A stretch of 64,000 bases of DNA from Prauserella cavernicola. Lineage in GTDB: Bacteria > Actinomycetota > Actinomycetes > Mycobacteriales > Pseudonocardiaceae. The translations under genes and the position numbers were made by a program. Below the pieces are notes generated by a model. That model had not been told where the DNA came from and did not search any database. It saw nothing but the letters and a program-made list of their open reading frames with translations. Position 1 is the first letter of the stretch, and each line of letters opens with the position of its first letter. Positions 47,339-60,663 of the stretch are shown piece after piece. The stretch covers positions 248,001 through 312,000 of the forward strand of contig NZ_JAENJH010000003.1 in assembly GCF_016595675.1 (NCBI RefSeq), in the 5' to 3' direction.

Positions 47339-47412
47339 GCCCCCGTAGCCCAATCGGCAGAGGCAGTCGACTTAAAATCGATTCAGTGCGGGTTCGAGTC
47401 CCGTCGGGGGCA
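47339..47412 (+). tRNA. tRNA with UAA anticodon (tRNA-Leu by code; short variable arm)
   Basis: 74 nt: acceptor GCCCCCG/CGGGGGC, anticodon arm GTCGA-CTTAAAA-TCGAT giving anticodon TAA, variable loop of only 5 nt (TCAGT), T arm GCGGG-TTCGAGT-CCCGT, discriminator A, no CCA. UAA would read UUA (Leu), but tRNA-Leu normally has a long variable arm. Its 3' half from 47375 is supplied by the integrated element and is identical to the attR copy. Confidence 0.85.
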
Positions 47413-47426
47413 CTACCTGCACTGGT
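47375..47426. repeat. attL (tRNA 3' end direct repeat)
   Basis: Begins AAATCGATTCAGTGCGGG and ends ACCTGCACTGGT. It differs from attR at one base just after the tRNA (T at 47414, C in attR). Confidence 0.92.
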
Positions 47427-47440
47427 CAGAGGCTTGGAGG

Positions 47441-47469
47441 AATGGGGCACCAAGATCAGGTGCCCCATT
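47441..47469 (+). terminator. Element-borne tRNA terminator-like hairpin
   Basis: AATGGGGCACC and GGTGCCCCATT form an 11-bp stem with a 7-base loop just after attL, followed by a weak T run. It mimics the chromosomal hairpin after attR, so the reconstituted tRNA still has a 3' terminator. Confidence 0.65.
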
Positions 47470-47493
47470 TACGCCCCACAAACTCTCGAACCC

Positions 47494-48648
47494 TCACAGG
47501 ATGTCTTCCAGCGCGGCAGCGGCAGCGGACGACACCGCACCACGGCCCATGTAGGCATCCTGCGTGATCGACGGCCGAGAGTGCCCGAGCTGGTCGGCGA
47601 TCAGCCGGGCGGACAATCCCGCCTCATCCATGATCGTCGCCGCAGTCTTGCGGAACACGTGCGACGTCACCCACGCGAATCCCTCGCTTCCTCGCGCCTC
47701 ACGCAGCGCCCGACGGGTGTTGGACGGGTCACGCAACCCTCCGAGGGTGTCCGGAAACACCGGGCTATCGGCCGGCCGATTCTCCGCCACAGCCGTCTTC
47801 CGACGTTGCCGCAGCATCTCCACCGCCCAAGACGGAAGCGGCAGCGCCCGTTCACTGGTCGCTGTCTTCGGATCGGTCCGCTTGAGCCCCTGACCCCGCA
47901 CCCGCACCACAGTCCAGTTGATCAAGACCGTCGCTTTGTCGAGGTCGACGTCCTCCCAGTAGAGCGCGAGCGCTTCCCCGATCCGCACGCCGGTCGCCAG
48001 CATGAACCGCGTGAGGTCCGGCAGGTCCTTCCGGCTGGCCTGAGGATCTAGTTCGAGCTGAGCCAGCCACGCGCGCCGTTCCTCGGCCGTCAGGGAGCGA
48101 ACCCGTTTCCTGCCGCTGCCCTCAATCGGTTCGATCTCGCGGATGGGATTCGCCGTGATCGCACCGTGTCGAGCGGCGTAGCGAAGAATCCCACTGACGA
48201 CGGCTCGTGCTGTGCGAGCATGCGCAGCGCTGGACTTGGCCTGCAGCGCGGGAAAGAACCTGTCGAGTCTCGGCACGGTCATCTCGTGCATACGCAACTC
48301 GCCGAACGCGGGAAGCACGTGGTTCGCCAGCATGCTCCGGTAGTTGTCCAACGTGCCCGGGGCTCGCTCCCCGTCGGCTACCCGTCGTTCCTGCCAGGCC
48401 AACCACCGATCGGCGACCTCGACGAAGCGCGACCGAGCGGTGATGTCGCCGCCACTCGGAGTCTGCAACGCCTGGGCGATCGCCAGCTTCAACACTCGTT
48501 CAGCCTTGGCCTTGCTCGGACCCGTCCGGCTCAGATCACGAGTCACACCGTCATATCCCCGATAGCGGGCCTTCGCCCGGTAGCCGGATGCGAGCTTCAC
48601 GAACCGGATCGCACCATGAGTGCCGACGTCCAACGGTGGTCTTGCCAT
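47494..48648 (-). CDS. int: Tyrosine site-specific integrase
   Basis: Phage-type recombinase that integrates and excises the element at the tRNA gene. 384 residues from ATG 48648. An N-terminal arm-binding part, a SAM-like core-binding domain (RSMLANHVLPAFGELRM), then the catalytic domain with Arg in TGVRIGEALALYWEDVD, HVFRKTAATIMDEAG (H-x-x-R), LGHSRPSITQDAYMG carrying the last His and the Tyr nucleophile. The start overlaps the xis stop by one base. Adjacent to attL, as in pSAM2. Confidence 0.96.
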   Translation of the reverse strand: MARPPLDVGTHGAIRFVKLASGYRAKARYRGYDGVTRDLSRTGPSKAKAERVLKLAIAQALQTPSGGDITARSRFVEVADRWLAWQERRVADGERAPGTLDNYRSMLANHVLPAFGELRMHEMTVPRLDRFFPALQAKSSAAHARTARAVVSGILRYAARHGAITANPIREIEPIEGSGRKRVRSLTAEERRAWLAQLELDPQASRKDLPDLTRFMLATGVRIGEALALYWEDVDLDKATVLINWTVVRVRGQGLKRTDPKTATSERALPLPSWAVEMLRQRRKTAVAENRPADSPVFPDTLGGLRDPSNTRRALREARGSEGFAWVTSHVFRKTAATIMDEAGLSARLIADQLGHSRPSITQDAYMGRGAVSSAAAAALEDIL

Positions 48649-48824
48649 CAGACGGCCCCTTGCTGGTCGATCCAGGTGTCGACGTCGGTGGCGCGGTAGC
48701 GGACGTACTTGCCGACACGCACGCCGTTCGGGCCGTAGCCCTTGGTGCGCCATTGGTAGAGGGTGTTCTTGGGGACGCCGAGGTAGGCGGCGAGGTCATC
48801 GATGGTCAGGAGTTTGCTGTTCAC
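48648..48824 (-). CDS. xis: Excisionase (MerR-type helix-turn-helix)
   Basis: 58 residues from GTG 48824. The fold is the small winged helix of AICE excisionases: LLTIDDLAAYLGVPKNTLYQ, then WRTKGYGPNGVRVGKYVRYR and TDVDTWIDQQ. It should bend attL/attR DNA for excision. The gene starts within the last 29 bases of rep and its TGA overlaps the int ATG, so rep, xis and int are translationally linked, as in pSAM2. Confidence 0.9.
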   Translation of the reverse strand: MNSKLLTIDDLAAYLGVPKNTLYQWRTKGYGPNGVRVGKYVRYRATDVDTWIDQQGAV

Positions 48825-50166
48825 GCTGGTATTCCTTGTCGTATTTGGACTTACGGTTATCTCGGATGCGGGCGGCGATGCTGGCGGCGAGTTCGCGTTC
48901 GGCGTCGTCGCGGTAGCCGGAGCCGGTGAAGCTCCAGTGGTTGACCACGGCCACGGTCTCGGCGCGGTCGGCCAGGCCGAGGCGGTCGAGGGTTTCGGCG
49001 AGCCGGTAGGCGCGACGGTCGCCCCGGATGGTTTTGAAGGTGGTGGAGTAGGCGCGGGATTTGGTGAGGAAGTGGCCGCGGAAGGCGAGCATGTGTGCCC
49101 AGCGCCGCAGGTTCAGCTCGTCGTAGGCGGGTAGGTCGCCGAGGTCCCAGGCGGTTTGGATCATCCGCCGGTGATGGTCGGAGACGGTGAGGTGGTCGAT
49201 GTCGAGTTGGGAGCGGACGGGGCGGTCGGCGGCTTCGGTTTTGCCGGTGCCCTTGGTGGCGTACTTGGCGATATAGGCGGCGAGGCGGGCCTCGGAGATC
49301 TCGCCCTGCTGGTCTTCGAAGTCGTCGGCCCCGGACGGCTGGATCGCGCGGACGTCGACCTGTGAGCCCCAGACGAGGGTGTCGCGGGTGCCGTCCGGGC
49401 GGATCACCGGGAGCGCTACGGCCCCAGCAGCGGCCAACACCGCGTCGTCGAGGAGGTCGGGGTGCGCCCAGGACGGGGCGGGTGTGGTGGCTCCGTCGGG
49501 GCCGTCGAGGCGGATCACGGCGTGGAAGTGCACGAGGCCGCGCCGTTGGTATTCGGCGACTTTGCCGTAGGACAGGCGCGCGTGCTCGGGGAAGTCGCGG
49601 GCGCGGATTCCGGCGCGCTTGGCGATCTCTCGGCGTAGCCGCATGGTGAAGCGCTGCCAGAGTGCTCCGGCGTGGGCTTGCCAGAGCACGGCCCCGGTGT
49701 AGTCGTAGGTGTCGCGCTCGAGCGGGGTGCCGATGCGCGGGTCGTCGTCGTGATGGAACTCCCCGCACCGGCACGGAATCCGCTTACCGCGGGCACTGGT
49801 GCGCGCGTGGTGGACGGGGCCGAAGGAGGGGGCGGTGAGGGTGATGAAGGCGCGGGGCCGCTCGGTGACCGTCTGCGGGATGCCTTTGGTGCCGCCGATG
49901 AGTCCGGCGCGGATGAGGTGGAAGGCGTCGGCGGCGTAGCGGTCGGAGCAGGCGGGGCAGACGGCGGAGCGGCGGTTGCCGCAGGGGACGAAGATGTCGC
50001 CGCCGTGGTGGTGCAGGACGCGGCCGGTGTGGGTGTCTTGGAGTTGGTGGGCTCCGGCGAGGCGGATGGGGCGGGCGCAGCCGTTGACGGCGTGGACCTT
50101 GGCGCGCCAGTCGGCGTAGTCGGCGGAGCGGAGCCGGTGGATCAGGCGTTGTTCGAGGGTGCGCAT
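48796..50166 (-). CDS. RepSA-like rolling-circle replication initiator
   Basis: 456 residues from ATG 50166 (AGGAAGGG 10 bases upstream). It begins with a region rich in Cys (GNRRSAVCPACSDRYAADAF), then a second Cys/His cluster (PCRCGEFHHDDD). The HUH motif is LVHFHAVIRL and a candidate catalytic Tyr lies in LAAYIAKYATKG. Nicks the double-stranded origin to replicate the excised circle before transfer. A terminator-like hairpin separates it from the upstream transfer genes, so it can be controlled apart. Confidence 0.92.
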   Translation of the reverse strand: MRTLEQRLIHRLRSADYADWRAKVHAVNGCARPIRLAGAHQLQDTHTGRVLHHHGGDIFVPCGNRRSAVCPACSDRYAADAFHLIRAGLIGGTKGIPQTVTERPRAFITLTAPSFGPVHHARTSARGKRIPCRCGEFHHDDDPRIGTPLERDTYDYTGAVLWQAHAGALWQRFTMRLRREIAKRAGIRARDFPEHARLSYGKVAEYQRRGLVHFHAVIRLDGPDGATTPAPSWAHPDLLDDAVLAAAGAVALPVIRPDGTRDTLVWGSQVDVRAIQPSGADDFEDQQGEISEARLAAYIAKYATKGTGKTEAADRPVRSQLDIDHLTVSDHHRRMIQTAWDLGDLPAYDELNLRRWAHMLAFRGHFLTKSRAYSTTFKTIRGDRRAYRLAETLDRLGLADRAETVAVVNHWSFTGSGYRDDAERELAASIAARIRDNRKSKYDKEYQREQQTPDHR

Positions 50167-50200
50167 GAACGCGGGGCCCTTCCTGTGTGGTGCAACAAAA

Positions 50201-50243
50201 CGAGGGCGGGACACCAGCCGGTGATGGCCGTGTCCCGCCCTCG
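50201..50243 (-). terminator. Rho-independent terminator between spd-like gene and rep
   Basis: CGAGGGCGGGACAC and GTGTCCCGCCCTCG form a 14-bp stem with a 15-base loop. On the minus strand it is followed by TTTTGTT. It would end or attenuate transcription from the transfer operon before rep. Confidence 0.75.
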
Positions 50244-50272
50244 GTTCGGCGGGGGATCGTGCAGGGGTCGTG

Positions 50273-51004
50273 CTAACCGCCGGTGACGGTGTGGCCGTTG
50301 CGGGGGGTGAGGTCGGCGAGGATGCGCAGCGCCATGTCCTCGGGGACCTTGACCGCCTGGCGGATGTCGGCGGCGGTGAGTTGGCGACCGTCGCGGCGGG
50401 CCTGCTCGGCGAGGTCGTCGAGACGCGCGGTCAGCGGCGCGGGGAGCCGAAGCCGCGGGGACTTCACCGGTTCCGGTGCGGTGATCTGCTCGGAAGGTTC
50501 GGCGGTCGTGTCCGGCGCGGTAGGTGTGGTCGGCTTGGATTCTCCCGGCATGGCGGGCACCGGTGCGGGTGCCGGGGCGGGCTCCGGGGTTGAGGTGGCT
50601 GGTGAGGTGGGGGTGCGGCGCATGAGGAGTTTGACGACGACGAGGAAGCCGAGGGCGGGCATGGCGGCGACGAGCCATCCGGCGGGGCTGGGTTCGGCGA
50701 GGGCGACTTGGGCGGCCATTTGGACGCCGAATCCGGCGACGAGCACGGTCATGGGGAAGGTGATGCGGCCGGTGTGGCCGTGGCGGTGGTCGCGCTGGAC
50801 TTCGAATCCGGCGACCACGACCATGCCTTCGATCACGACGGCGGTGGCCCAGGCCAGCCACCCTGTTTGTCCGTGGTGGCTGGCCCACTCGTGGGTGTGG
50901 GTGAACCCGGCGGCCGCACCGATCCCGCCCAGGATCACCGCGACGGTGATGCGGAGGAAGTCCACCAGGCGGCCGGTCCGGGGCGGGGTGTCCGTGGCAG
51001 ACAT
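50273..51004 (-). CDS. DUF2637 membrane protein (Spd-like)
   Basis: 243 residues with four hydrophobic helices in the first 125: ITVAVILGGIGAAAGFTHTH, WLAWATAVVIEGMVVVAGF, FPMTVLVAGFGVQMAAQVAL and GWLVAAMPALGFLVVVKLLM. A Pro/Ala/Glu linker of about 50 residues leads to a helix-turn-helix-like end (GRQLTAADIRQAVKVPEDMA). DUF2637 proteins are common in AICEs and actinomycete plasmids, near tra, and resemble spread (pock-formation) proteins. Function in spread within mycelium is inferred. Confidence 0.85.
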   Translation of the reverse strand: MSATDTPPRTGRLVDFLRITVAVILGGIGAAAGFTHTHEWASHHGQTGWLAWATAVVIEGMVVVAGFEVQRDHRHGHTGRITFPMTVLVAGFGVQMAAQVALAEPSPAGWLVAAMPALGFLVVVKLLMRRTPTSPATSTPEPAPAPAPVPAMPGESKPTTPTAPDTTAEPSEQITAPEPVKSPRLRLPAPLTARLDDLAEQARRDGRQLTAADIRQAVKVPEDMALRILADLTPRNGHTVTGG

Positions 51005-51022
51005 GGCATCTGTCCTTTCTGT

Positions 51023-51235
51023 CTAGTGTTCGCGCCGCCAGAGTCCAGACAGGCGTCGCCGGTCCTCGGCCTCGTCTTCGTGAAGGCGGGCGAGCTGATC
51101 GCAGTACTCGGCCAGGCGTTCGCGCACCGGCCGGTTCACCACCGAGTCGCAGTGGTGCGTGAAGTGGTCGAGGAGTTCGCCGTACTCAGCGTGAAGCGCC
51201 ACGATCTGTTCGAGGGGCAGGAGATCCTCGTTCAT
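51023..51235 (-). CDS. Small hypothetical AICE protein (70 aa)
   Basis: 70 residues, helical and acidic (LHAEYGELLDHFTHHCDSVV, ARLHEDEAEDRRRLSGLWR). No family recognised. ATG 51235 overlaps the preceding gene's stop in an ATGA, so it is part of the transfer operon. Confidence 0.68.
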   Translation of the reverse strand: MNEDLLPLEQIVALHAEYGELLDHFTHHCDSVVNRPVRERLAEYCDQLARLHEDEAEDRRRLSGLWRREH

Positions 51236-51657
51236 CGCGCACTGCCGGGTGGGTGCAGGTTCGACCAGCGGGTGAGCATCGCCCGGCCCTGTCTGGTCAG
51301 GCGAAGCGGGATGAGGGGTTTGCGGACTGCGCCGTGCAGGCAGGTGAGGGTGTCGCGGATGGTGCCGCGTTCGAGGTAGCCCTGCGCGAGGAGGTGGTGG
51401 ACGAGGTCTTCGTCCAGGGCGGCGCGGACGTGTTCGTCGTCCTCGAGGACCATCACGCGGTCGGTGTCGTCGAGCAGCCCGAACCGGCCCAGCTGCACCT
51501 CCGCCAGCACGTCCTTCGCGACCAGCGGGTTCGCCGGAGGTGTGCGGGTGGTGCGTCCGCGTGGGGGAGGGCACTGCCGGGCCGGTGCCGGAACTGGGGC
51601 ATCCGCAGCGGTGGTGGTGCCGAACAGGTCCAGTTGGGGCTGCTCGTGGCCGGTCAT
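51232..51657 (-). CDS. Hypothetical AICE protein with winged-helix-like part (141 aa)
   Basis: 141 residues. A Pro/Ala-rich N-terminus (DAPVPAPARQCPPPRGRT) precedes a region of about 85 residues resembling a small winged helix: AALDEDLVHHLLAQGYLERG, TIRDTLTCLHGAVRKP, LRLTRQGRAMLTRW. No named family. Overlaps both neighbours by four bases. Confidence 0.68.
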   Translation of the reverse strand: MTGHEQPQLDLFGTTTAADAPVPAPARQCPPPRGRTTRTPPANPLVAKDVLAEVQLGRFGLLDDTDRVMVLEDDEHVRAALDEDLVHHLLAQGYLERGTIRDTLTCLHGAVRKPLIPLRLTRQGRAMLTRWSNLHPPGSAR

Positions 51658-51884
51658 CGGGTGTGTTCCCGGCGGATGCTGGTCATCTGGTGGTGGTATC
51701 CGGCGGCGTGGGAGCGCCATTCGCGGAACAGGCCCGCGCAGATCACCAGGTAGATGAGCACGGTGATGGTGGCGATGGTGGTGAAGGCCCAGGGGCTGGG
51801 GATCATGGCGCGTTCGATGACCACGGCCAGCAGCGCGACCACGCTGACCTTGGCCCAGGTCCACAGGAATGCGAGCGTCAACAT
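51654..51884 (-). CDS. Small two-span membrane protein of the AICE (76 aa)
   Basis: 76 residues with helices at about 5-24 (AFLWTWAKVSVVALLAVVIE) and 33-51 (AFTTIATITVLIYLVICAGL), and a basic His-rich tail. Small membrane proteins of this kind in AICEs may aid transfer or spread. Start overlaps the upstream stop (TGATG). Confidence 0.7.
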   Translation of the reverse strand: MLTLAFLWTWAKVSVVALLAVVIERAMIPSPWAFTTIATITVLIYLVICAGLFREWRSHAAGYHHQMTSIRREHTR

Positions 51885-52234
51885 CAGTCCTCCTTGTCGG
51901 GTCGGTGGTGCTGGCAGAGCACTTCTTGTTCGCTGGTGGCGGCCCAGCCGGGGTAGGCGCGGACGTGGTCGGCCAGGGCGTCCCAGCTGCCGAACTCCAG
52001 CGAGGGGGTGGTGACTTCCTGCCCGCACACGACGCAGTGGGGCAGGAACACCGGGTTGCAGGCCACGAGTTCGACGTCGGACCCGTGACGGCGCAGGAGC
52101 CGTGCCCGGGTGCGGGCGGCGTGGAGATCGGTGGTGCACAGGTCGAGCAGCTTGTCGAGATCACCGAGCATGTTCACCGACCAGATCAGCAGGAAGTAGT
52201 GCGTTTCGTGGACGATGCACGGGTATGCGGGCAT
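51884..52234 (-). CDS. AICE zinc-ribbon-like protein, copy 2 (116 aa)
   Basis: 116 residues. Cys pair CVVCGQEV and a second cluster CQHH near the end suggest zinc binding. It is related to the next gene upstream: both have CVVCG, a spacer of about 20 residues with a W-D/G-E-L/A helix, then PGWxATxExxxxCxxH. The N-terminal half differs. Seven bases separate the two genes. Unknown function. Confidence 0.7.
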   Translation of the reverse strand: MPAYPCIVHETHYFLLIWSVNMLGDLDKLLDLCTTDLHAARTRARLLRRHGSDVELVACNPVFLPHCVVCGQEVTTPSLEFGSWDALADHVRAYPGWAATSEQEVLCQHHRPDKED

Positions 52235-52240
52235 GAGGGT

Positions 52241-52600
52241 TCACCAACCTCGCCAGTCTTGGTGGGGTGCGTGGTGGGGGCAGAACACGTGGTGTTCGTT
52301 GGTGGCTTGCCAGCCGGGTTCGTCCCAGAGGAAGTCTTCGAGTTCGCCCCAGCTCAGAAACACCCAGTAGTCCGGGTCGCACACCTCCCCGCACACGACG
52401 CAGCGGGCGTAGAAGGAGCCGTCGTAGTACAGGATCGTCAAGTCCCGACCGGGTGCGGCCAGGGAGCGCAGCGCGTCTTCGGCGTAGGCGCGGGTGTAGT
52501 AGAGGGTTTCGTCGGTGGGATAGAAGCGGCCGCCGTCGCGGATGACCACCATGTAGAGGTCTCGTGCCTGCCAGGCGGGATAGTTGATGGTGACCATCAC
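52241..52600 (-). CDS. AICE zinc-ribbon-like protein, copy 1 (119 aa)
   Basis: 119 residues, rich in aromatic residues: INYPAWQARDLYMVVIRDGG, DETLYYTRAYAEDALRSLA. The C-terminal half holds CVVCGEVC, DYWVFLSWGELEDFLWDEPG and CPHHAPHQD, the same pattern as its paralogue. Overlaps the transfer ATPase gene's stop by four bases. Probable tandem duplication inside the transfer operon. Confidence 0.7.
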   Translation of the reverse strand: MMVTINYPAWQARDLYMVVIRDGGRFYPTDETLYYTRAYAEDALRSLAAPGRDLTILYYDGSFYARCVVCGEVCDPDYWVFLSWGELEDFLWDEPGWQATNEHHVFCPHHAPHQDWRGW

Positions 52601-53961
52601 GCCACCACCGCGAGCCGGTTGCCGCTGCGTCCGGTGTGGACGAACGCGACGAGTTGGTCGATCTCGGTGTCGTCGACGTAGGCGGCCCGCACCCGTTGGG
52701 GGACGCGGGTGCGTTCGCGGATGACGTAGCCGATTCCCGCGGTGCCCTCGTGATTGGCGATCTCGTCGGCGATCGCACCCCGCAGGCGGGCGTTCTCGCC
52801 GAGGACCATGTCCACATGGGCGGCCGAGGTGACCCGCAGGCAGATGCGGGTGGTGAACAGCTCCCTGATCGGCACTGTGTCCTTGGTGGGTTCCTGCACC
52901 AGCGCGGTCATGGCGTGTCCGGTCGCCCGCCCCTGCGACCCCACGATGGCCAACTGCTTGCGCAGGTTGCGCGAGACCGTGCCGTCGCCGTAGGCCAGCA
53001 ACGCGCCGATCTCGTCGATCACCAGCACGTTCAGCGGCGTCTCCGGGGAGACGGTGATCTTGCGCTTGCCGTTCTCGGCGAACCCACGCTGCACGGCGCG
53101 GAGGTCGTTGACGAACTCGTCGACCAGCGCCGAGCAGTCGTGCTCATCGGCGGCGTAGCGGTGGGCGATGGAGGCGAGTTTGGTGAACTCCATCTGCTTG
53201 GGGTCGCACAGCCAGAGCCGGACGAGCCCGTCGCGGATGAGGGGTGCGATGGCGCGGAGCTGGGACATGACGATCGAGTTCTTGCCCGCCCCGGTCGCCC
53301 CGGCGACGAAGGTGTGCTGCCCCAGTACCGGCAGTCGCCAGTCGTGGCCGTACTCGGTCTCGCCCACGTAGACCGATTTGAGGTTGACCGCGTCGGTCTC
53401 CTGCGGCATCTCGGGGGCGTCGATCGTTTCGGTGAAGGCTTCGGAGCGTTCGATGATCAGCCCGATCACGCCGGGCTTGACGCGTTCCACCGCGATCCGC
53501 TCCGCCCGCAGCGCCTCGGTCAGCTCGGGCAGGCGGGCTTCGTACTGGCGGGCGTGCTGGCCCTGGGGGATCTTGAGCCACAGGGTGTCCACCGTCGGCG
53601 AGTAGGACCGCACCCGCACGATGCGGGGGAAGCGTTCCTCCCCGGTCTTGCGGTGAATGGTGTAGAGGTCACAGGCCCGCAGCGCGGCGTGCCAGCGGGG
53701 TCCGAGGTAGGCAGACCAGCGGCGCCGCCAGGCGCGCATGCGGGGTGCGGCGACGGCGTCGAAGGTGTCGGGGTGTGCCCGGTACCAGCCGCACAGGGCA
53801 GCCGCGGTTCCCCCGACGATCCCGCCGGTGGCGATCCAGCCCAGTTCGAGGCCGGAGGCGGTGAGCGTGCCCGGAGCAACCAGCGCGCCGGGGTGGCGGG
53901 CGGTCCACACGGCTGCTTTGACTTCGCGGCCCATCGTGCGCTTCGACTGTGGCGTGTCCAT
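52597..53961 (-). CDS. FtsK/SpoIIIE-type transfer protein (TraSA-like)
   Basis: Main conjugative transfer protein; a hexameric translocase moving double-stranded DNA between mycelial cells. 454 residues. Hydrophobic segment near 30-60 (GWIATGGIVGGTAAALCGWY), then an FtsK-type ATPase with Walker A TFVAGATGAGKNSIVMSQL, Walker B NVLVIDEIGALLAYG, and QGRATGHAMTALVQEP. Preceded by a hairpin that separates it from the small upstream ORFs. Clt/TRS target repeats were not identified. Confidence 0.93.
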   Translation of the reverse strand: MDTPQSKRTMGREVKAAVWTARHPGALVAPGTLTASGLELGWIATGGIVGGTAAALCGWYRAHPDTFDAVAAPRMRAWRRRWSAYLGPRWHAALRACDLYTIHRKTGEERFPRIVRVRSYSPTVDTLWLKIPQGQHARQYEARLPELTEALRAERIAVERVKPGVIGLIIERSEAFTETIDAPEMPQETDAVNLKSVYVGETEYGHDWRLPVLGQHTFVAGATGAGKNSIVMSQLRAIAPLIRDGLVRLWLCDPKQMEFTKLASIAHRYAADEHDCSALVDEFVNDLRAVQRGFAENGKRKITVSPETPLNVLVIDEIGALLAYGDGTVSRNLRKQLAIVGSQGRATGHAMTALVQEPTKDTVPIRELFTTRICLRVTSAAHVDMVLGENARLRGAIADEIANHEGTAGIGYVIRERTRVPQRVRAAYVDDTEIDQLVAFVHTGRSGNRLAVVA

Positions 53962-53991
53962 CAGAACAGGAATCCCTTCGGATAGAACGAG

Positions 53992-54032
53992 ACCGGCCCC
54001 ACCACCCAGATCAAGCGGGTGCGGGGCCGGCC
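53992..54032 (-). terminator. Strong hairpin before tra
   Basis: ACCGGCCCCACCACCC and GGGTGCGGGGCCGG form a long GC-rich stem with a 9-base loop. On the minus strand it is followed by TCTCGTTCT. Could act as a terminator or as an attenuator of tra. Confidence 0.55.
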
Positions 54033-54083
54033 TCGCGTGAGTTCGTACGTGCGTGTGTGGTTGTCGTGCGTGCCGAGCAGGGG

Positions 54084-54266
54084 CTAGTCGTCGATGGCTG
54101 TGCTGGCGTCTTGGAGTTCGGCGGACATGCGGCCGACGGCGCGGGCGGCGCGGTCGTGGTGGGTTTTGAAGCCCTCCTTGCGTACCGGGATGCCGCGCAT
54201 GGCGCGTTTGAGCTGGGTCATCGCCGCGTCGAGGTCGCCGAGGACCCGGTCTACCTGGTGTGCCAT
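54084..54266 (-). CDS. Small helical AICE protein (60 aa)
   Basis: 60 residues, helical throughout (VDRVLGDLDAAMTQLKRAMR, AARAVGRMSAELQDASTAID). One base from the upstream gene. Unknown function; small coiled-coil proteins are frequent in AICE transfer operons. Confidence 0.65.
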   Translation of the reverse strand: MAHQVDRVLGDLDAAMTQLKRAMRGIPVRKEGFKTHHDRAARAVGRMSAELQDASTAIDD

Positions 54267-54267
54267 G

Positions 54268-54531
54268 TCAGAGCCTCCACTCGCGGGAGATCAGGTCTCC
54301 CTCGTACTTGCGGGCCACCACCCGCATCCGGTCCAGCTCGTCGAACGCCTTACCCCGGAAGCCGCGGATCTCGTCCGGGGTGGCGACGGTGAAGCCGCCG
54401 GGGACGGCGCGGTCGTCGAGGGCGTCGATGAGCTTGTCGACCTCGTCGAACTGCTCCGCGACCAAGTCCATCGCGGCGACGAAGGCGGCGTAGTTCTGCT
54501 GCGCCCGCCGGTTCAGTGCCGAAATCTGCAT
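54268..54531 (-). CDS. Small helical AICE protein (87 aa)
   Basis: 87 residues: QQNYAAFVAAMDLVAEQFDE then VDKLIDALDDRAV and a C-terminal helix FDELDRMRVVARKYEGDL. No family recognised. Its ATG is 3 bases after the upstream gene's stop. Codirectional member of the operon. Confidence 0.68.
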   Translation of the reverse strand: MQISALNRRAQQNYAAFVAAMDLVAEQFDEVDKLIDALDDRAVPGGFTVATPDEIRGFRGKAFDELDRMRVVARKYEGDLISREWRL

Positions 54532-54534
54532 CCC

Positions 54535-54705
54535 TCAGGTGCCTTTCTGTGTGGTGGCCACCAGGGCGGCGGCCGAGCGGAGATCAGCGGTCAGGAACTT
54601 CACCGCGTTACTCACCGCATCCCGGGTCTCCCGATCCGGCCTGGTGGCGATGAATCGCTGGTATTCGGTGTTCGCGGCGGTGATGATCGCCTGAATCTCG
54701 TGCAT
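54535..54705 (-). CDS. Small AICE protein (56 aa)
   Basis: 56 residues from ATG 54705 to TGA 54535: starts MHEIQAIITAANTEYQRFIA, then TRPDRETRDAVSNAVKFLTA and a short Ala-rich end. Start overlaps the stop of the upstream gene by one base (TGATG). Coupling to both neighbours and normal codon use support it despite its length. Confidence 0.6.
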   Translation of the reverse strand: MHEIQAIITAANTEYQRFIATRPDRETRDAVSNAVKFLTADLRSAAALVATTQKGT

Positions 54706-54875
54706 CACTGGCCTCCGTTGCGGATCACGTGCTGGGCGTGGCGCAGGCCCTCACAGAAACCCGCCTGCCACGCGAGATCACTCGCCGGTTCGGTCAGGGC
54801 GTCCTGGCGGTCCCGCTCGATCAGCGACGCCAACCGGCGCACCAGCCGCGATACCTGGATCGCTCGCCCGCTCAC
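54705..54875 (-). CDS. Small AICE protein (56 aa)
   Basis: 56 residues from GTG 54875, preceded by GAGGTGGGCGGC. Sequence SGRAIQVSRLVRRLASLIER, then DRQDALTEPASDLAWQAGF and CEGLRHAQHVIRNG. Overlaps the membrane-peptide gene upstream by four bases (GTGA). No family known. Confidence 0.62.
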   Translation of the reverse strand: MSGRAIQVSRLVRRLASLIERDRQDALTEPASDLAWQAGFCEGLRHAQHVIRNGGQ

Positions 54876-54997
54876 GCCGCCCACCTCTTCCTGCTCCAGG
54901 CGATCCCGCCCAGACCCAGCGCCACGGCGAGGGCACCGGCCACGGGCATCGCGACCGTCAAACACCCCACCAACACCACCAGAAATAGCCAGCTCAT
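54872..54997 (-). CDS. 41-aa single-span membrane peptide
   Basis: ATG 54997 with GGAGG upstream. One hydrophobic helix over nearly the whole length (LFLVVLVGCLTVAMPVAGAL), ending in SRKRWAA. Similar single-span peptides occur in AICE transfer operons. Coupled downstream by a four-base overlap. Confidence 0.62.
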   Translation of the reverse strand: MSWLFLVVLVGCLTVAMPVAGALAVALGLGGIAWSRKRWAA

Positions 54998-55010
54998 TTG
55001 TTTTCGCCTC

Positions 55011-55100
55011 CTACAGTGGCCATTGCGCGCCGCACACCGTGCACGTCGCAATTCGACTCGGGGACAACCAGAAATTCGCCGAACACACATGGCCACCCAT
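55011..55100 (-). CDS. Possible 29-aa zinc-binding peptide
   Basis: ATG 55100 to TAG 55011. Product contains GGHVCSANFWLSPSRIATC and TVCGAQWPL, an H-x-C ... C-x-x-C pattern that could bind zinc. It begins in a TGATG overlap with a 23-codon ORF and ends just before the RBS of the 41-aa peptide. An alternative frame through the same DNA (ending at 54994) also overlaps the next start, so the frame choice is uncertain. Confidence 0.38.
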   Translation of the reverse strand: MGGHVCSANFWLSPSRIATCTVCGAQWPL

Positions 55101-55171
55101 CAGGCGGCCCGCGTCGGTCCGGACGGGTCATACGAGGACAACCCGCCCCACGCCACCATCTCGCCCACCAT
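55100..55171 (-). CDS. Possible 23-aa leader ORF of the AICE operon
   Basis: ATG 55171 with GGAAGGAG at proper spacing; product MVGEMVAWGGLSSYDPSG plus five residues. Its TGA overlaps the next ATG. The good ribosome binding site is the main support; no similarity known. Confidence 0.35.
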   Translation of the reverse strand: MVGEMVAWGGLSSYDPSGPTRAA

Positions 55172-55248
55172 CTGCCACTCCTTCCACTCGATCCTGCTTG
55201 TGGTAAAACCCCAAGACCCCCGCACAAAAACGAGTCCGGGAATCAAGG

Positions 55249-55275
55249 CGCGTCACCACAAATTGACGCGTTTTT
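55249..55275 (+). terminator. Plus-strand rho-independent terminator in the AICE gap
   Basis: CGCGTCA and TGACGCG pair over an 8-base loop and are followed by TTTTT on the plus strand. No plus-strand gene precedes it, so it may end an unannotated transcript opposite the transfer operon. The rest of the 55172-55439 gap shows no convincing gene; it has several A-rich stretches and could hold cis-acting sites. Confidence 0.55.
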
Positions 55276-55439
55276 GGCATGGATCGGCCCACTCTGGAAT
55301 TGTCAATCAACAAGAAAGCGCGCTGGCCCGACTCGAAAACGGGCCGCCTGCCAAGAATTCAGGGCAGCGCTCCACGGTGTTGGGATGCGGGCCAGGGAGA
55401 CACCCGCGACCGGTCACCCACCGGTCATCGCGACCGGGC

Positions 55440-55820
55440 CTATGCGGCCGACGACAAACCGCCCTGCCCGGCAGGCTTCAACCCCGCCGCACGAAACGAC
55501 ATCCCGAAGTTGACGTTGCCCTGCTTGTCCTTCATCGCCCACGACGACGCCGTCGCCTCCACCAGCTCCACATAGGTGCCCTCGTCGAACCCCTCACCCG
55601 GATCCGCCGCCAGCGTCACCTTGATCTCCTCGCCCTTACCCGCCGGGCGACCATCCGACCGCGGGCGACGCTTCGCGAACACCGACACCACGAACTGCTG
55701 CACACCCTGAAAGTCCGTCGCCGCAACCAGCTCGCCGTTGTCGTCCTCACGCATCTTCATCGCCGGGGCCTCCGACACCATCAACTTGAAGCCGCCCAAG
55801 TTCACCGGGATGTTCCTCAT
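55440..55820 (-). CDS. SCO3933-family AICE regulatory protein
   Basis: 126 residues from ATG 55820 after GGAGGAC. Begins RNIPVNLGGFKLMVSEAPA; middle QQFVVSVFAKRRPRSDGRPA; ends with QGNVNFGMSFRAAGL. The family is found in many AICEs at the head of the transfer operon and is called regulatory in databases without firm evidence; the fold looks OB-like and a single-strand DNA-binding role is conceivable. Its promoter region shares three palindromes with the XRE gene. Confidence 0.82.
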   Translation of the reverse strand: MRNIPVNLGGFKLMVSEAPAMKMREDDNGELVAATDFQGVQQFVVSVFAKRRPRSDGRPAGKGEEIKVTLAADPGEGFDEGTYVELVEATASSWAMKDKQGNVNFGMSFRAAGLKPAGQGGLSSAA

Positions 55821-55835
55821 GCCGTCCTCCTTGTG

Positions 55836-55953
55836 TGCAAATTTGCATCGTCTATGAACGAGGTTATGCCAGGTGGGCAACTGATGACAACCCCGACGAT
55901 GCAAATTTGCATTCATCACTCGAATGGACCAGCGTGCTGGATGCAAATTTGCA
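55836..55953. promoter_or_regulatory. Three TGCAAATTTGCA operators of the AICE switch region
   Basis: The perfect 12-bp palindrome TGCAAATTTGCA occurs at 55836-55847, 55900-55911 and 55942-55953. The first is 15 bases before the SCO3933-type ATG, the last 23 bases before the XRE ATG. Start-to-start spacing is 64 and 42 bases; 42 is four helical turns. This is the likely binding array of the divergent XRE repressor, controlling transfer versus quiescence. Confidence 0.8.
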
Positions 55954-55976
55954 GGTCAGGGGTCTACGCTGGACGC

Positions 55977-56801
55977 ATGACAGCAGTGAGAGAGGAACGC
56001 ATCGCGCGGGAGCTCCGCAGACTGCGCGGGACTTATACGAGTACTGACGTCCAGCGAGCCCTCGGCATCACGCCGTCGAAGCTCTCGCGAATCGAGAGCT
56101 GCAAGGTGCGTCCGAGTCCTGAAGATGTCAGGCGACTCGCTGTGTTCTATGAAGCCGACACCAAGACAGTCGAACGACTCGCGAAGGCCGCCGAGGAACT
56201 CAAGCGGCCAGTCTGGTGGACCGAGTTCGTCGGCCCTGACTGGAGCTCGGCTCTTGGCTACCACCTCGAACTCGAGACCGAGGCCACACGGATCGAGTCC
56301 TGGACCGTCGACCTCGTCCCTGGCCTGATGCAGACCCCTGACTACGCCTCAGCTCTCATCACTGCACGCGTCGACGTCCCAGCGGACCAGCTCGAACGCC
56401 GATTGGAACTCCGGGTTCGTCGACAGCAGCGGGTGCGGGACGGCTCCCTGGAACTCTGGGTGATCGTCAGCGAAGCGGTCCTGCATAACCTGATCGGGGG
56501 AGCAGGGGTACTCCGGGACCAACTTCTGCACCTGGCAGACGCTCCCAGCAACGTAACTGTGCAGGTCCTGCCCTTCTCGGCGGGTGCTCACAGTGGTCTG
56601 GGAGTCAGTTTTCACCTGCTAGAATTCGCCGACTGGCCTACGGTCGGGTATCAGGACACAATCACCCAGGGTCTCTACTACGACGATCCTGACGTGGTTC
56701 AGGGCCTAGCGAGAACAGTTAATGATGTGCGTGCCACGGCACTGAGTCCTAGCGCGTCGCGCGCGGCTCTCAGTCAGCGGGCTACGGAATTGGAAGGGTG
56801 A
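55977..56801 (+). CDS. XRE-family regulator with DUF5753 domain
   Basis: 274 residues. N-terminal Cro/C1-type helix-turn-helix (RRLRGTYTSTDVQRALGITP, SKLSRIESCKVRPSPEDVRR) and a C-terminal DUF5753 region of about 180 residues (SWTVDLVPGLMQTPDYASAL, GGAGVLRDQLLHLADAPSNV). ATG 55977 follows a TCTACGCT box by only a few bases, so the mRNA is probably leaderless. It is divergent from the transfer operon and pairs with a DUF397 gene, the standard actinobacterial duo. Here it is likely the element's repressor or activator. Confidence 0.93.
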   Translation: MTAVREERIARELRRLRGTYTSTDVQRALGITPSKLSRIESCKVRPSPEDVRRLAVFYEADTKTVERLAKAAEELKRPVWWTEFVGPDWSSALGYHLELETEATRIESWTVDLVPGLMQTPDYASALITARVDVPADQLERRLELRVRRQQRVRDGSLELWVIVSEAVLHNLIGGAGVLRDQLLHLADAPSNVTVQVLPFSAGAHSGLGVSFHLLEFADWPTVGYQDTITQGLYYDDPDVVQGLARTVNDVRATALSPSASRAALSQRATELEG

Positions 56802-56805
56802 CCGG

Positions 56806-57015
56806 ATGCTCAGCCGCGAGTGGAAGAAGAGTTCCTACTCTGGTGGGTCAAACGACTGCGTCGAGGCGCGACTCGGTGCCGACGGTGGGGTCGAAGTCCG
56901 CGACAGCAAGGCTCCTGAACTTGGATCGCTCAAGTTCACCCCGAGTGAGTGGGACGCCTTCACTGCTGGAGTCAAGGCCGGTCAGTTCCGCATCCCGGGA
57001 CCGGAACAGAGCTAA
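56806..57015 (+). CDS. DUF397 protein
   Basis: 69 residues: WKKSSYSGGSNDCVEARLG, VRDSKAPELGSLKFTPSEW and DAFTAGVKAGQF, the full DUF397 pattern. Begins 5 bases after the XRE gene, so cotranscribed. Such pairs act as regulator and small modulator; BldB-related systems suggest antagonistic roles, but not proved for this family. Confidence 0.92.
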   Translation: MLSREWKKSSYSGGSNDCVEARLGADGGVEVRDSKAPELGSLKFTPSEWDAFTAGVKAGQFRIPGPEQS

Positions 57016-57030
57016 CGCCAGCACGACCCG

Positions 57031-57063
57031 AGAGGGCCCCGAGCCGCGATGGTTCGGGGCTCT
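57031..57063 (+). terminator. Terminator after the XRE/DUF397 pair
   Basis: AGAGGGCCCCGA pairs with TTCGGGGCTCTCT across a 10-base loop and is followed by TTG. It separates the control pair from the structured region and cargo. Confidence 0.7.
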
Positions 57064-57125
57064 CTTGCTGTCCGGGTCATCCTCATCGTCCCTGCCTGCT
57101 CCAGGCGTGGAGTGTGTGTTCAGAG

Positions 57126-57285
57126 TTTCTTCTCTTGTTCAAGGCGGCCCCTGCGGGGCCGCTGGCCTGCTGCTCTTCTGCTCCGGCCGAGCCTGCGCGG
57201 GGCGTGCGGCTGGCGCCGGTCCCCGCGCATCGGCCGGAGCCGAGGCAGGCCAAGGGGAGCAGGGGAGCGTTGAACAGAAGAAAGA
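57126..57285. repeat. Large imperfect hairpin 1 of the AICE gap
   Basis: The left strand TTTCTTCT...GTTCAAGGC...CCCCTGC...TGGCCTGC...CTCCGGCCGA...GCGCGGGG is matched in reverse by CCCCGCGC, TCGGCCGGAG, GCAGGCCA, GCAGGGGA, GCGTTGAAC and AGAAGAAAG. The arms span about 75 bases each with small bulges; the loop is near 57205-57220. There is no convincing gene in it. It could be a folded RNA, an origin or a decayed inverted element. Confidence 0.65.
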
Positions 57286-57357
57286 ACATGTCCTCGCCGG
57301 ACGGGCTGGCTCCGGGATGGCCGGGGAACGTAGCCGCGGTGCGGTTGGCAGGGTGGG

Positions 57358-57510
57358 CGCTTGGTGGTCATCCCGTCGCCTGACTGATGGCTATCACACC
57401 GAGTCGGAACCGCGAGCCTGGCACATTCGGCCGGCAGTGGGCGAGCAGAGGTCGCGGCTCCGACACGGCGTGATCGAGACGCCATCAGGCGACGGGATGA
57501 CCACCAAGCG
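57358..57510. repeat. Large hairpin 2 with 26-bp perfect terminal inverted repeats
   Basis: The first 26 bases (CGCTTGGTGGTCATC then CCGTCGCCTGA) are exactly repeated in reverse at the right end (TCAGGCGACGG then GATGACCACCAAGCG). Inside, TCACACCGAGTCGGAACC matches, in reverse, GGCTCCGACACGGCGTGA with three changes. About 35 bases form the loop. No target duplication is visible at its ends. It ends 54 bases before the cargo membrane-protein start, so it may be in its leader. Confidence 0.75.
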
Positions 57511-57564
57511 TTAGAGTCTAGACTTTGAGGAGCGCGGCGTTCCGAATTCATTGGAGTGGCTAAG

Positions 57565-58212
57565 GTGGACGTGGCTGCATTAGTAATATCTATTTTCGCC
57601 TTCGGCCTAGCATTGGCTGGATTCATCTATGCAAGAATTGAATTCCGGAGGACTGGCCCACTGATTGATGTCCGCTTGATGAAAGGTGGCGTCAAGAATT
57701 CTGAAGGATCGGGCTTCTTGGTCGATGAGCGCGCAGAAGCTTGGATCGACCTTCCTGTCTCGAATAAAAATCACAATGCACTGGCCGCTTGGACGGAGTA
57801 TTCGGTCTACGGTGTGCATGTGATAAATAAGGGACGCAGTCGAATTCTAGTGCGAAAAGTCTATCTAGAGCAAGACCTTACGCCCAGTAAAAAATGGGCC
57901 GAACTGACGGCTGACGCAAAAGGAAAGAAGAATCATCACGTCGTTATGAAGATGGATCACTCGGTCGAGCATGGGGGGTTTAGTCATGGTTCGGAGTTGC
58001 CCTGCTCAATCGAGGGAAATTCCGATGCCTACTGGGCCGTTTCCGCCCTTCGCCTCCTAGAATGCAATTTTGATCATCTGGTGAACTATGCCATTCAGTT
58101 GGGAGACGGAACGGTAGTACGCACCAAGAAGTTCCAAATTGAGTCATTCTCTGATGAGGAACGAGAAAAAGTCTTTGGCAACTTTACGTCGGCAAGCGAT
58201 GAAGAGGTTTAG
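57565..58212 (+). CDS. AICE cargo: membrane-anchored hypothetical protein
   Basis: 215 residues. One N-terminal membrane helix (ALVISIFAFGLALAGFIYAR, about 5-24), then a globular domain with no family I recognise (YSVYGVHVINKGRSRILVRK, YLEQDLTPSKKWAELTADA, YAIQLGDGTVVRTKKFQIES). GTG 57565 follows GGAG by 8 bases; another GTG nine bases earlier is possible. The DNA is visibly more AT-rich than the rest of the element, which points to separate acquisition. It is convergent with the two-gene cargo unit. Could be a membrane effector of a defence unit; this is conjecture. Confidence 0.8.
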   Translation: MDVAALVISIFAFGLALAGFIYARIEFRRTGPLIDVRLMKGGVKNSEGSGFLVDERAEAWIDLPVSNKNHNALAAWTEYSVYGVHVINKGRSRILVRKVYLEQDLTPSKKWAELTADAKGKKNHHVVMKMDHSVEHGGFSHGSELPCSIEGNSDAYWAVSALRLLECNFDHLVNYAIQLGDGTVVRTKKFQIESFSDEEREKVFGNFTSASDEEV

Positions 58213-58283
58213 TTCGGCGCCTGAGCTTACCCCGTGAAGGAGGGGCCACCAGGTCGCCAGCGACTTGACTGGGCAGTCGTTGG

Positions 58284-59714
58284 CTACTCTCGCTCACTCT
58301 GCTCGCCGAATATCTTCACCCGCTCGCCTTCCGAGATCGGGTACCGGTATCCGAGTATATCGAATGACGATCGCGCCAGATCGACAAGCGCTGCGTCGTT
58401 CCCTTCGGCCGTGTTGTGTTTGAAATCAACGTCGACGTCTGACGCTCCCGCGACTGTGCCTCGAACGCTTAGGCGCCTCAATTTGAAGTCGTCATCCATT
58501 GTTTCGAATATTGAGTCGACATCTCGGAGGACATCTGAGCTTTCGTCATTTGTGCTAACGCTAATCCTACGAACAACGCCTTGAAGCTCCGCAGACGAGA
58601 CCGCCGAACCGGACAGGGCGGGTCGGAGGTCTTCCCACCGTGCTAGCGGCGAGTCGTCCCTACCGGACGCTTGTCGTTTGTCGGTAGTGAAGTGTACCGT
58701 CCACGGGCCCGCCGAGGCGGTGAGCATCTTTGCGTGAATGTACCAGCGAGGTTCTGGATGTTCTTCCTCGTCGAACCACTCGGAATTCAAGCTGACAGCG
58801 GAACGATTCGCGCGCCAGTAGTGGAGATTGGCTCGAACCAATGAGCCGATATCGACCTCTTCCAATTCGGCGGATATCTTCTGAATCTCTTTTAGTCCCA
58901 CCATGCTTCCGATGTACTCCCAGAAAGTTGACTCGTCTTCCTCCTGGGCGCGTCGGAGCAAATATGGAAGCAGGATTCTTATCTCATCGGTTTCAAGTTT
59001 TCCTCGGACGAGATTTTCGCCACCATCCTCGTCGGCGTGGAGCATTTCTATGTCACCCGTTCGGGCCATCCTTACAATGGATGCCGCCCGGCGGAGTCGC
59101 AATGATGCGTCTTCGCGAAAAAGTCGCGATACAGTCGATTCGAATCGGTCAATGTAATCGATGTCTTGCCCGAGGTTATCACTTCCCCTGTAGCGGGGAA
59201 GGTCGGCGGCCGTCTGGCTTATGATCAACCCCTTGCCGCCTCGAACTACATTCCTTCGGAAGAGATCGAATAGTGGTGCTGCTACAGATTCCCGCACCAA
59301 TTTTAAGTTATCAAATTCAGCAAACTCGTCGATCGACGGTGCATTTGTGACTAGCGCATTGGGTGACCTCTCGATTTCCCCTTCGAGCTCGTCGGCCACC
59401 TCGCTATCGTCATGAGACGAATCCAGGGAGAAAAACACCGGGTTGGAGCCGCCCAACAAGTCAACGTCTCGCGCCGCTTGAGTCGATCTAAAGTTGTAGC
59501 GCAAGTAAACTTCGCGGTCCTGCCTCGCGCCCCAGCTTAGAACTAGGTCCGGTGCGAAGCTGTGATTGAAGTAGTCGGTCTTTTTGATTTCAGCCGAGGG
59601 GTCCAACTTTTCAAGTTCCGCAATCACGGCGCCCTTAATCCCCTCGATGACGTCGTCCGGGTTGTCCGAGATGAGGGCAGAAGCAACCGCGTTCTGCAGC
59701 GAGGTCTCCGGCAT
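58284..59714 (-). CDS. AICE cargo: large protein of nuclease-associated pair (476 aa)
   Basis: 476 residues from ATG 59714, after the strong SD GGAGGGGG that lies in the end of the upstream gene. N-terminal region: HSFAPDLVLSWGARQDREVY then LRYNFRS, recalling a PD-(D/E)XK core with Asp56 and Glu69 but Tyr in the Lys place, so degenerate if real. Near 327-329 HAKMLTASAGPW looks like an H-x-K motif of phospholipase D proteins, but the following Asp is absent. Acidic, AT-rich codon usage. No family recognised. The pair is a candidate defence system. Confidence 0.8.
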   Translation of the reverse strand: MPETSLQNAVASALISDNPDDVIEGIKGAVIAELEKLDPSAEIKKTDYFNHSFAPDLVLSWGARQDREVYLRYNFRSTQAARDVDLLGGSNPVFFSLDSSHDDSEVADELEGEIERSPNALVTNAPSIDEFAEFDNLKLVRESVAAPLFDLFRRNVVRGGKGLIISQTAADLPRYRGSDNLGQDIDYIDRFESTVSRLFREDASLRLRRAASIVRMARTGDIEMLHADEDGGENLVRGKLETDEIRILLPYLLRRAQEEDESTFWEYIGSMVGLKEIQKISAELEEVDIGSLVRANLHYWRANRSAVSLNSEWFDEEEHPEPRWYIHAKMLTASAGPWTVHFTTDKRQASGRDDSPLARWEDLRPALSGSAVSSAELQGVVRRISVSTNDESSDVLRDVDSIFETMDDDFKLRRLSVRGTVAGASDVDVDFKHNTAEGNDAALVDLARSSFDILGYRYPISEGERVKIFGEQSERE

Positions 59715-59716
59715 TT

Positions 59717-60316
59717 TTATGCCCCCTCCCGCTTCAAGTGCATCATCGCCAACTTCAGCTCTTCGGCCGTCAAGGTCAGCTCCTCCTGCTGGCGGTCGGT
59801 CAGCACCACAAGCCAGAGCCTGTCGGCGACCGTCCGGCACAGTTCCTTGTCGGGCTCCGCCGACTCGGCGTTACCGTCACCGCCGCCCAACTGGAGGCTG
59901 TCTACATGCTTCTCCACTGCCTCGTACACGTACTCATGTGACAGTAGGCGCGGCCAAGCACCCTGACTGAAGGGATGCCAGGTGATCCACATGAACTCCG
60001 CGCCGTCGTCCATTTCCTCACGCTGGGCACGCGCTGTGATGCTGTACACGTCCGCTATGTACTCCAGGTACAGAGTCCCCTGGGCTCCCGCGGTGGTGTA
60101 CTTCTTGGCTTCAACGAACAGCGGACGGCGTCTCTCGCCCAGGAAGTGGCCTGCGAGATCGTAGGTCTTCTTGGAGCCGTCCAAACGCTGGCGTTTGCAC
60201 AAGTTAACGTGATCGTAAGCTGTCCAAGGAAGCCGGAGGTGGGTTGTGCCCTCCAGATACTGCTTCACGCGAAAGACTCCGTCGCGTCCCAGTTCGTGCG
60301 CCTCCTCAGCGGACAT
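59717..60316 (-). CDS. AICE cargo: PD-(D/E)XK nuclease-like protein (199 aa)
   Basis: 199 residues. The core reads DGSKKTYDLAGHFLGERRR then PLFVEAKKYTTAG: Asp53, then Glu69-x-Lys71, the classical nuclease catalytic pattern between two beta strands, preceded by an amphipathic helix (GRDGVFRVKQYLE). The C-terminal half is helical (YEAVEKHVDSLQLGGGDG, DRQQEELTLTAEELKLAMMH). Two bases separate it from the large partner, whose ribosome binding site it contains. Nuclease activity is inferred; restriction or anti-phage function is plausible. Confidence 0.8.
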   Translation of the reverse strand: MSAEEAHELGRDGVFRVKQYLEGTTHLRLPWTAYDHVNLCKRQRLDGSKKTYDLAGHFLGERRRPLFVEAKKYTTAGAQGTLYLEYIADVYSITARAQREEMDDGAEFMWITWHPFSQGAWPRLLSHEYVYEAVEKHVDSLQLGGGDGNAESAEPDKELCRTVADRLWLVVLTDRQQEELTLTAEELKLAMMHLKREGA

Positions 60317-60611
60317 GGTCTCGGAGAGTAGTCGACCGGGCGTCAGCGCGTAAGAGAATGATCATATTCCACTCAGAACGCCCAGGCTCACGTGTCTGAC
60401 AGCGAGGTGGTAGCCGGTGGTTGAGGCTGGCGCGCCGTCTCATGGCGCGGTCGGTGGTTAGCCTGGGCAAGATCGAGTGGCCGACTTACGCCCCGCAATG
60501 ACCAGTAGACGACCACAGACGGCGAGGCATGACGAGTCGACTGCTCGTCTGTTTGCCCAGGTCACGACACGCGACGGTCGAGATCGCTGAGGAACGACAA
60601 GGATCGATCGG

Positions 60612-60663
60612 AAATCGATTCAGTGCGGGTTCGAGTCCCGTCGGGGGCACCACCTGCACTGGT
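60612..60663. repeat. attR (tRNA 3' end direct repeat)
   Basis: Same 52 bases as attL apart from one change. It holds the original chromosomal 3' end of the tRNA gene. The 60317-60611 interval between the cargo and attR has no convincing gene, only a small GACGAG...CTCGTC inverted repeat near 60532-60550. Confidence 0.92.

Follow-up and report, generated by a model that had tools for sequence, protein, structure and literature searches.

Type IV restriction enzymes combine a nuclease subunit with a large partner, and a methylase is not obligatory in them. Among two-component anti-phage nuclease systems, DUF4297-HerA consists of parts that each have very low activity alone and act as a complex, according to the report on that system (PMC11291478). 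Actinobacteria have been poorly sampled for defence systems: according to one survey, only 3 of 131 detectable defence systems came from or were tested in actinobacteria, and more are expected on their mobile elements (PMC10482375). Here we analysed a stretch of 64,000 nucleotides of the Prauserella cavernicola genome (contig NZ_JAENJH010000003.1, positions 248,001 to 312,000; hereafter the window, to which all positions refer), which contains an actinomycete integrative and conjugative element (AICE) of ~13 kb bounded by exact 39-bp repeats derived from the 3' end of tRNA-Leu(taa). Next to its distal end the AICE carries two adjoining genes, A and B, encoding proteins of 199 and 476 amino acids. 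Our reading, to which we assign a probability of roughly 55%, is that in actinobacteria the two genes form a mobile immunity module, complete in itself, that acts against incoming DNA, whether of phages or of competing plasmids and elements. The pair is compact (2 kb), occurs in many actinobacterial genera, has a conserved active site and is absent from the libraries searched; if the reading is true, it would add a nuclease system whose partner comes from a wholly undescribed family, and show AICEs as its carriers.

An earlier note on this DNA, made from the sequence alone, had read in gene A the Asp53 and Glu69-x-Lys71 pattern of PD-(D/E)XK nucleases, and these residues are present in the window protein exactly as described there. 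All three were kept in 56 of 56 aligned A rows, three of which repeat the genome of another row and some of which are fragments. An AlphaFold model of A, with a predicted local distance difference test score of 90.3 and a predicted template modelling score of 0.86, displayed an alpha-beta-beta-beta-alpha-beta core (helix 3-24; strands 27-32, 49-51, 54-58 and 65-71; helix 79-99; strands 107-112 and 167-171), with the residues located on the second and third strands, as in the common core of PD-(D/E)XK proteins. A structure search with this model recovered the nuclease fold that the note had anticipated. The top structures were HerA-DUF (9c1m; VIA Z 9.9, root-mean-square deviation (rmsd) 5.3, 166 aligned), LmuA (Z 9.9, rmsd 5.1, 155 aligned, and Z 9.7, rmsd 4.8, 165 aligned), AF1548 (Z 9.8, rmsd 2.6, 115 aligned) and XisH (Z 9.1, rmsd 2.7, 114 aligned), all tied within 1 Z, with Avs3 (7.5) and Cap4 (6.9) lower. 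The conserved motif and the modelled fold thus mark A as a predicted PD-(D/E)XK nuclease. The description of A and B as a nuclease-like pair holds for A alone, B being nuclease-like by no test. A PADLOC match of A to JetA (E 0.0017, residues 129-187) was found for only one of 36 A proteins and was taken as chance.

The same note had proposed that the two genes are coupled, and this was corroborated well beyond the window. Here the stop codon of A and the ATG of B are separated by 2 bases, and a GGGAGGGG run within the last codons of A could serve as the ribosome-binding site of B. A was present in 55 of the 57 loci in hand, and in 51 of those 55 the start of B, taken as the start codon nearest the A stop, lay -7 to +6 bp from that stop on the same strand, the commonest junction being an overlap of 4 bp (27 of the 48 loci that remained without three duplicates). 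The other four loci contain broken copies, with B split (L013), A truncated and B missing (L014), both genes out of frame (L044) or A reduced to a fragment (L054); two loci (L006 and L008) contained B remnants only. Decayed copies of the pair with stop codons, split frames or fragments (L006, L008, L013 and L044) show that it has been lost repeatedly.

Of 394 genomes sampled across the class, eight carried A; these eight, that of the window among them, also carried B, of which two further, partial copies with stops occurred elsewhere. B was found in 8 of 297 genomes of the host family, again counting that of the window; one of these copies has a stop and another is a fragment. The distance matrices of A and B were correlated with r 0.94 over 49 pairs, a value reached in 0 of 1000 permutations, which shows, as read from these distances, co-inheritance and not contact. 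BLAST clustering of the genes in 49 loci placed B in 46 and A in 45, the next family reaching 9, and yielded no third gene family recurring widely with the pair. Because the linked pair was found in dozens of other loci, its pairing is not due to chance, and A-B is a real two-gene unit. A scan of the genomes of 84,980 species returned 72 stretches fitting a pattern and 40 confirmed A loci, all 40 in actinobacterial genera by record names; the patterns were derived from actinobacterial proteins, so that distant relatives elsewhere could be missed. Plasmid records from Arthrobacter and Streptomyces-type hosts contained B in five cases and A in eight, and three further A loci came from viral contigs.

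Searching Pfam, PADLOC, NCBIfam, PHROGs and PDB sequences with the window protein gave no significant match for the partner, B. Among 36 B members no Pfam family was common to more than three and none was common in PADLOC; Pfam and PADLOC searches covered 36 A and 36 B members as well as the window proteins, NCBIfam and PHROGs searches the window proteins only. The best matches of B profiles to PDB sequences had E 1.5 for the whole protein and 0.36 for the first 150 residues (29 sequences). As far as tested, within these libraries, B appears to represent a new family. The suggestion of an undescribed system likewise stands, since the pair was unmatched in the libraries searched. A literature search with six protein accessions of relatives led to no paper, and none of the listed titles describes the pair (mostly titles were covered, with bioRxiv preprints excluded). 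B also matched an NCBIfam dehydrogenase model (E 0.14), but its 11 bits fall short of the cut-off of 427 and the match was discarded as chance; a NikA-like match was seen in three of 36 B proteins (best E 0.00057) and not in the others. Matches to tetratricopeptide repeats came from one member among the 36, probably that of L055; the B protein of L055 (L055:8594-10519) has a long C-terminal extension.

Alignment of B revealed a signature, T-x2-FNH-x3-PD-x4-W ... R-x2-(Y/F)-x-R, within the first 75 residues, together with Trp265 and Trp324. Each of the residues K27, T46, F49, N50, H51, P55, D56, W61, R67 and R72 was kept in 50 or more of the 53 rows, and every row had W265 and W324; the most conserved block of 20 residues was 41-60. 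The apparent N-terminal order of helix, strand, FNH loop, PD strand and basic strand is similar to that with which a PD-(D/E)XK fold begins, with Y/F-x-R, in our reading of the alignment, where E-x-K would be expected. The idea that B repeats the fold of A was rejected, a profile-profile comparison of B with A by hhalign being negative.

The block containing A, B and a third gene, C, is cargo of the AICE, as the earlier note had supposed, because all three genes are absent from two sister AICEs at the same tRNA. Sister elements were sought via the integrase and three of the closest were compared (L099, L100 and L101). L099 and L101 both lie at tRNA-Leu(taa) with their own att repeats, and their integrases are 80% and 64% identical to that of the window, respectively. 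Similarity to the window stops at 57510 in L099 and at ~57327 in L101, and the distal att follows the end of similarity within 0.8 kb and 0.3 kb, respectively; neither element contains A, B or C. L100 ends at a contig edge before the cargo point and is uninformative on cargo. The GC content of the block is 55.5%, versus 67.1% for positions 47415-57510 and 70.1% for the remaining window. All three cargo genes had been said to differ from the rest of the element in codon and base use; judged by GC content at third codon positions, this is true of C (0.52) and B (0.62), which deviate clearly, and not of A, whose value of 0.775 falls inside the span of the other element genes (integrase 0.75, RepSA 0.87, Tra 0.91, regulator 0.68, DUF397 protein 0.70).

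The neighbourhoods examined elsewhere were also largely mobile elements, some with restriction genes, and not the scattered housekeeping contexts that would have spoken against the note's proposal. L105 is an AICE at tRNA-Thr with RepSA, an integrase and 43-bp repeats, L106 an integrase element at tRNA-Arg with 44-bp repeats, and the pair of L019 lies between 41-bp repeats of tRNA-Arg. In the window, L105 and L106, A faces inward, with 188-351 bp between it and the distal att. Other pairs do not generally share this placement: only 4 of 49 loci had a tRNA T-arm in the 1.5 kb upstream of A. Six closely related Streptomyces copies (L011, L033, L034, L036, L039 and L051) adjoin Tn7-like genes: each has a TnsB-like gene no more than 2.5 kb upstream of A, and five have a TnsC-like gene as well. 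In L011 these are annotated as Mu transposase C-terminal and ATP-binding proteins and adjoin a TnsA-like protein. The B tree distributes Streptomyces over several clades and places the two Arthrobacter plasmid copies far apart. In all 43 loci longer than 10 kb (five shorter loci excluded) the GC content of the pair was below that of its flanks, with means of 59.9 and 66.9%, a difference of -7 points. The defence survey cited above links low relative GC of actinobacterial defence genes, at ratios below 0.8, to rare, exchanged systems (PMC10482375); the mean pair/flank ratio of ~0.9 agrees with this trend and misses the threshold.

Proteins flanking the pair were compared with PADLOC models. The 150 nearest of 311 de-duplicated flanking proteins matched 262 models (E ≤ 1e-5), versus 51 for 150 control genes drawn from 287 in 20 chromosomal stretches of six same-family genomes, an excess that supports, and does not prove, a defence neighbourhood. 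Four of ten long direct neighbours scanned singly matched PADLOC: a type ISP/IIG restriction enzyme directly downstream of the pair in L010, a type I restriction R subunit beside it in L055, a methylase-like gene beside it in L015 and an LmuB-like ATPase in L021. In L009 a type I S subunit lies ~4 kb upstream. The commonest Pfam matches of the 150 neighbours were GntR, integrase core and helix-turn-helix families, with three members each.

In the mechanism that we propose for the immunity module, A would be a metal-dependent DNA nuclease of the PD-(D/E)XK fold. B, probably produced from the same transcript by coupled translation, would be its obligate partner and would most likely keep A inactive in a complex; on recognising an invader or its DNA, B would license or direct cleavage by A. 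The case for a defence function itself is circumstantial, and several observations weigh against it. Middling VIA Z values (7-8) are common for unmatched models, and the 36 B members have no sensor, ATPase or DNA-binding domain recognisable with Pfam or PADLOC. The nearest relatives of the window B in the B tree belong to its own host family, Pseudonocardiaceae. No PADLOC model matched more than three of the 150 neighbours (up to four of 150 in the control) and no defence family recurs; given redundant PADLOC models and a chromosomal control, the excess may stem in part from the mobile context, and six of the ten long direct neighbours had no PADLOC match. AICE cargo is generally varied and often decayed (PMC9513070). 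B, the only one of the two searched there, had no match in 50,697 phage records, a result that decides nothing.

A more specific form of this proposal, which we put forward tentatively and as clearly less probable, is that A-B is an actinobacterial immune system of an undescribed type in which B founds a new sensor family. The conserved T-x2-FNH-x3-PD-x4-W ... R-x2-(Y/F)-x-R face of B would read a feature of the invading DNA and free A, with no ATPase, nucleotide messenger or methylase being involved. This face may be a degenerate PD-(D/E)XK-like domain, binding DNA without cutting it.

It is also conceivable, albeit unlikely in our judgement, that A-B is a restriction-type enzyme, in which B would be the specificity or target-recognition subunit and A would cut either modified DNA, in the manner of type IV enzymes, or unmodified DNA, with protection supplied elsewhere. 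That no third family recurred on BLAST clustering of the 49 loci speaks against a classical unit that includes a methylase of its own and not against a type IV enzyme; methylases diverge, though, and the PADLOC models listed were 25 of the 262 matched. We regard as more doubtful still a toxin-antitoxin (addiction) module stabilising the mobile element, with A as nuclease toxin and B as antitoxin. Two adjoining genes on mobile elements, in three cases at the element end, and the existence of degraded B remnants without A would suit such a module, but the putative antitoxin is more than twice the size of the toxin and is encoded second, and no toxin-antitoxin family was matched in the libraries searched. 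Finally, an element-maintenance or recombination factor, in which A would control excision or integration as an XisH-like nuclease, is improbable: sister AICEs with related integrases at the same tRNA site lack the pair, which is also found on plasmids and beside Tn7-like genes, few loci have a tRNA end upstream of A, and no XisH or XisI family was among the Pfam matches.

The carrier is recognisable as an AICE by its tyrosine integrase, Rep protein, FtsK-like Tra protein and att repeats in a tRNA gene (Table 1), and no methylase was found among the nine element proteins scanned with Pfam. A protein of 168 amino acids without a Pfam match (55440-55946) was conserved in three of three sister AICEs compared, with 40-82% identity. 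The host genome contains two further RepSA genes (G000:C33:704771-706126 and G000:C22:1263752-1265221), which makes more AICEs there probable. A perfect inverted repeat, with arms of 26 bp separated by 101 nt, directly adjoins the cargo; kept with its surroundings in L099, it is the last feature common to both elements, ends exactly where the cargo starts and may be a site of transfer or replication of the AICE. The cargo-side DNA at 57016-57560 had no match in plasmids, and scans for promoters and terminators gave matches at chance level only.

Table 1 Features of the AICE and its cargo in the window.
Feature	Position	Strand	Basis or remark
attL	47375-47413	+	Inside tRNA-Leu(taa), 47339-47413
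Tyrosine integrase	47494-48753	-	PF00589, E 1.3e-20
RepSA replication initiator, pSAM2 type	48796-50214	-	PF20199, E 1.1e-152
FtsK/SpoIIIE-type DNA transfer protein (Tra)	52597-53961	-	PF01580, E 1.1e-11
Helix-turn-helix regulator with DUF5753	55980-56801	+	PF19054, PF13560; start assumed
DUF397 protein	56806-57015	+	PF04149, E 1e-20
26-bp perfect inverted repeat	Arms 57358-57383 and 57485-57510		Candidate site; adjoins cargo
AT-rich cargo block (genes C, B, A)	57511-60611		55.5% GC
Gene C, 218 aa	57556-58212	+	One N-terminal hydrophobic span (sequence reading)
Gene B, 476 aa, no known family	58284-59714	-	ATG at 59714
Gene A, 199 aa, predicted PD-(D/E)XK nuclease (E4, D53, E69, K71)	59717-60316	-	Motif and AlphaFold model
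attR	60612-60650	+	39-bp copy, tRNA-Leu 3' end

Gene C, which probably starts at GTG 57565 with GGAG ahead, had been counted by the earlier note as part of the candidate system, a claim that did not survive the comparison of loci. No relative of C occurred beside any other pair among the loci compared, and none was found in plasmids. Among 150 genomes it was detected in its own genome only, and among 296 nothing beyond its own genome was recovered except one match with E 0.0097. C as a third component was rejected for want of linkage to the pair elsewhere. A single weak match to the PADLOC model PDC-S57 (E 0.0066) was noted. To judge from its sequence, C is an orphan membrane protein, a passenger beside the A-B module.

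Several described systems come close to A-B. One is the XisH family, the excision factor of the fdxN element; when 36 A and 36 B proteins were searched against Pfam (E ≤ 0.1), neither XisH nor XisI was among the matches. In Lamassu the partner of LmuA is the SMC-like LmuB, whereas no LmuB recurs with A-B in the 49 loci and a single LmuB-like ATPase was present among the ten long neighbours (L021). Type IV and heterodimeric restriction enzymes have no sequence relation to A-B that the libraries searched would reveal and share its layout. For Cap4/DUF4297, membership of A was rejected on sequence: Cap4_nuclease (PF14130) had no match in the window A (E ≤ 1), in 36 A proteins (E ≤ 0.1) or in a six-frame search of its own genome, and hhalign of A against five Cap4_nuclease proteins found nothing, a weak test with five sequences only. 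DUF4297-HerA further differs in its HerA ATPase partner, B matching no ATPase family (window E ≤ 1; 36 members E ≤ 0.1), and in the length of its matched chain, 430 residues against 199 in A. It is nevertheless DUF4297-HerA whose mechanism is most like the one proposed here for A-B.

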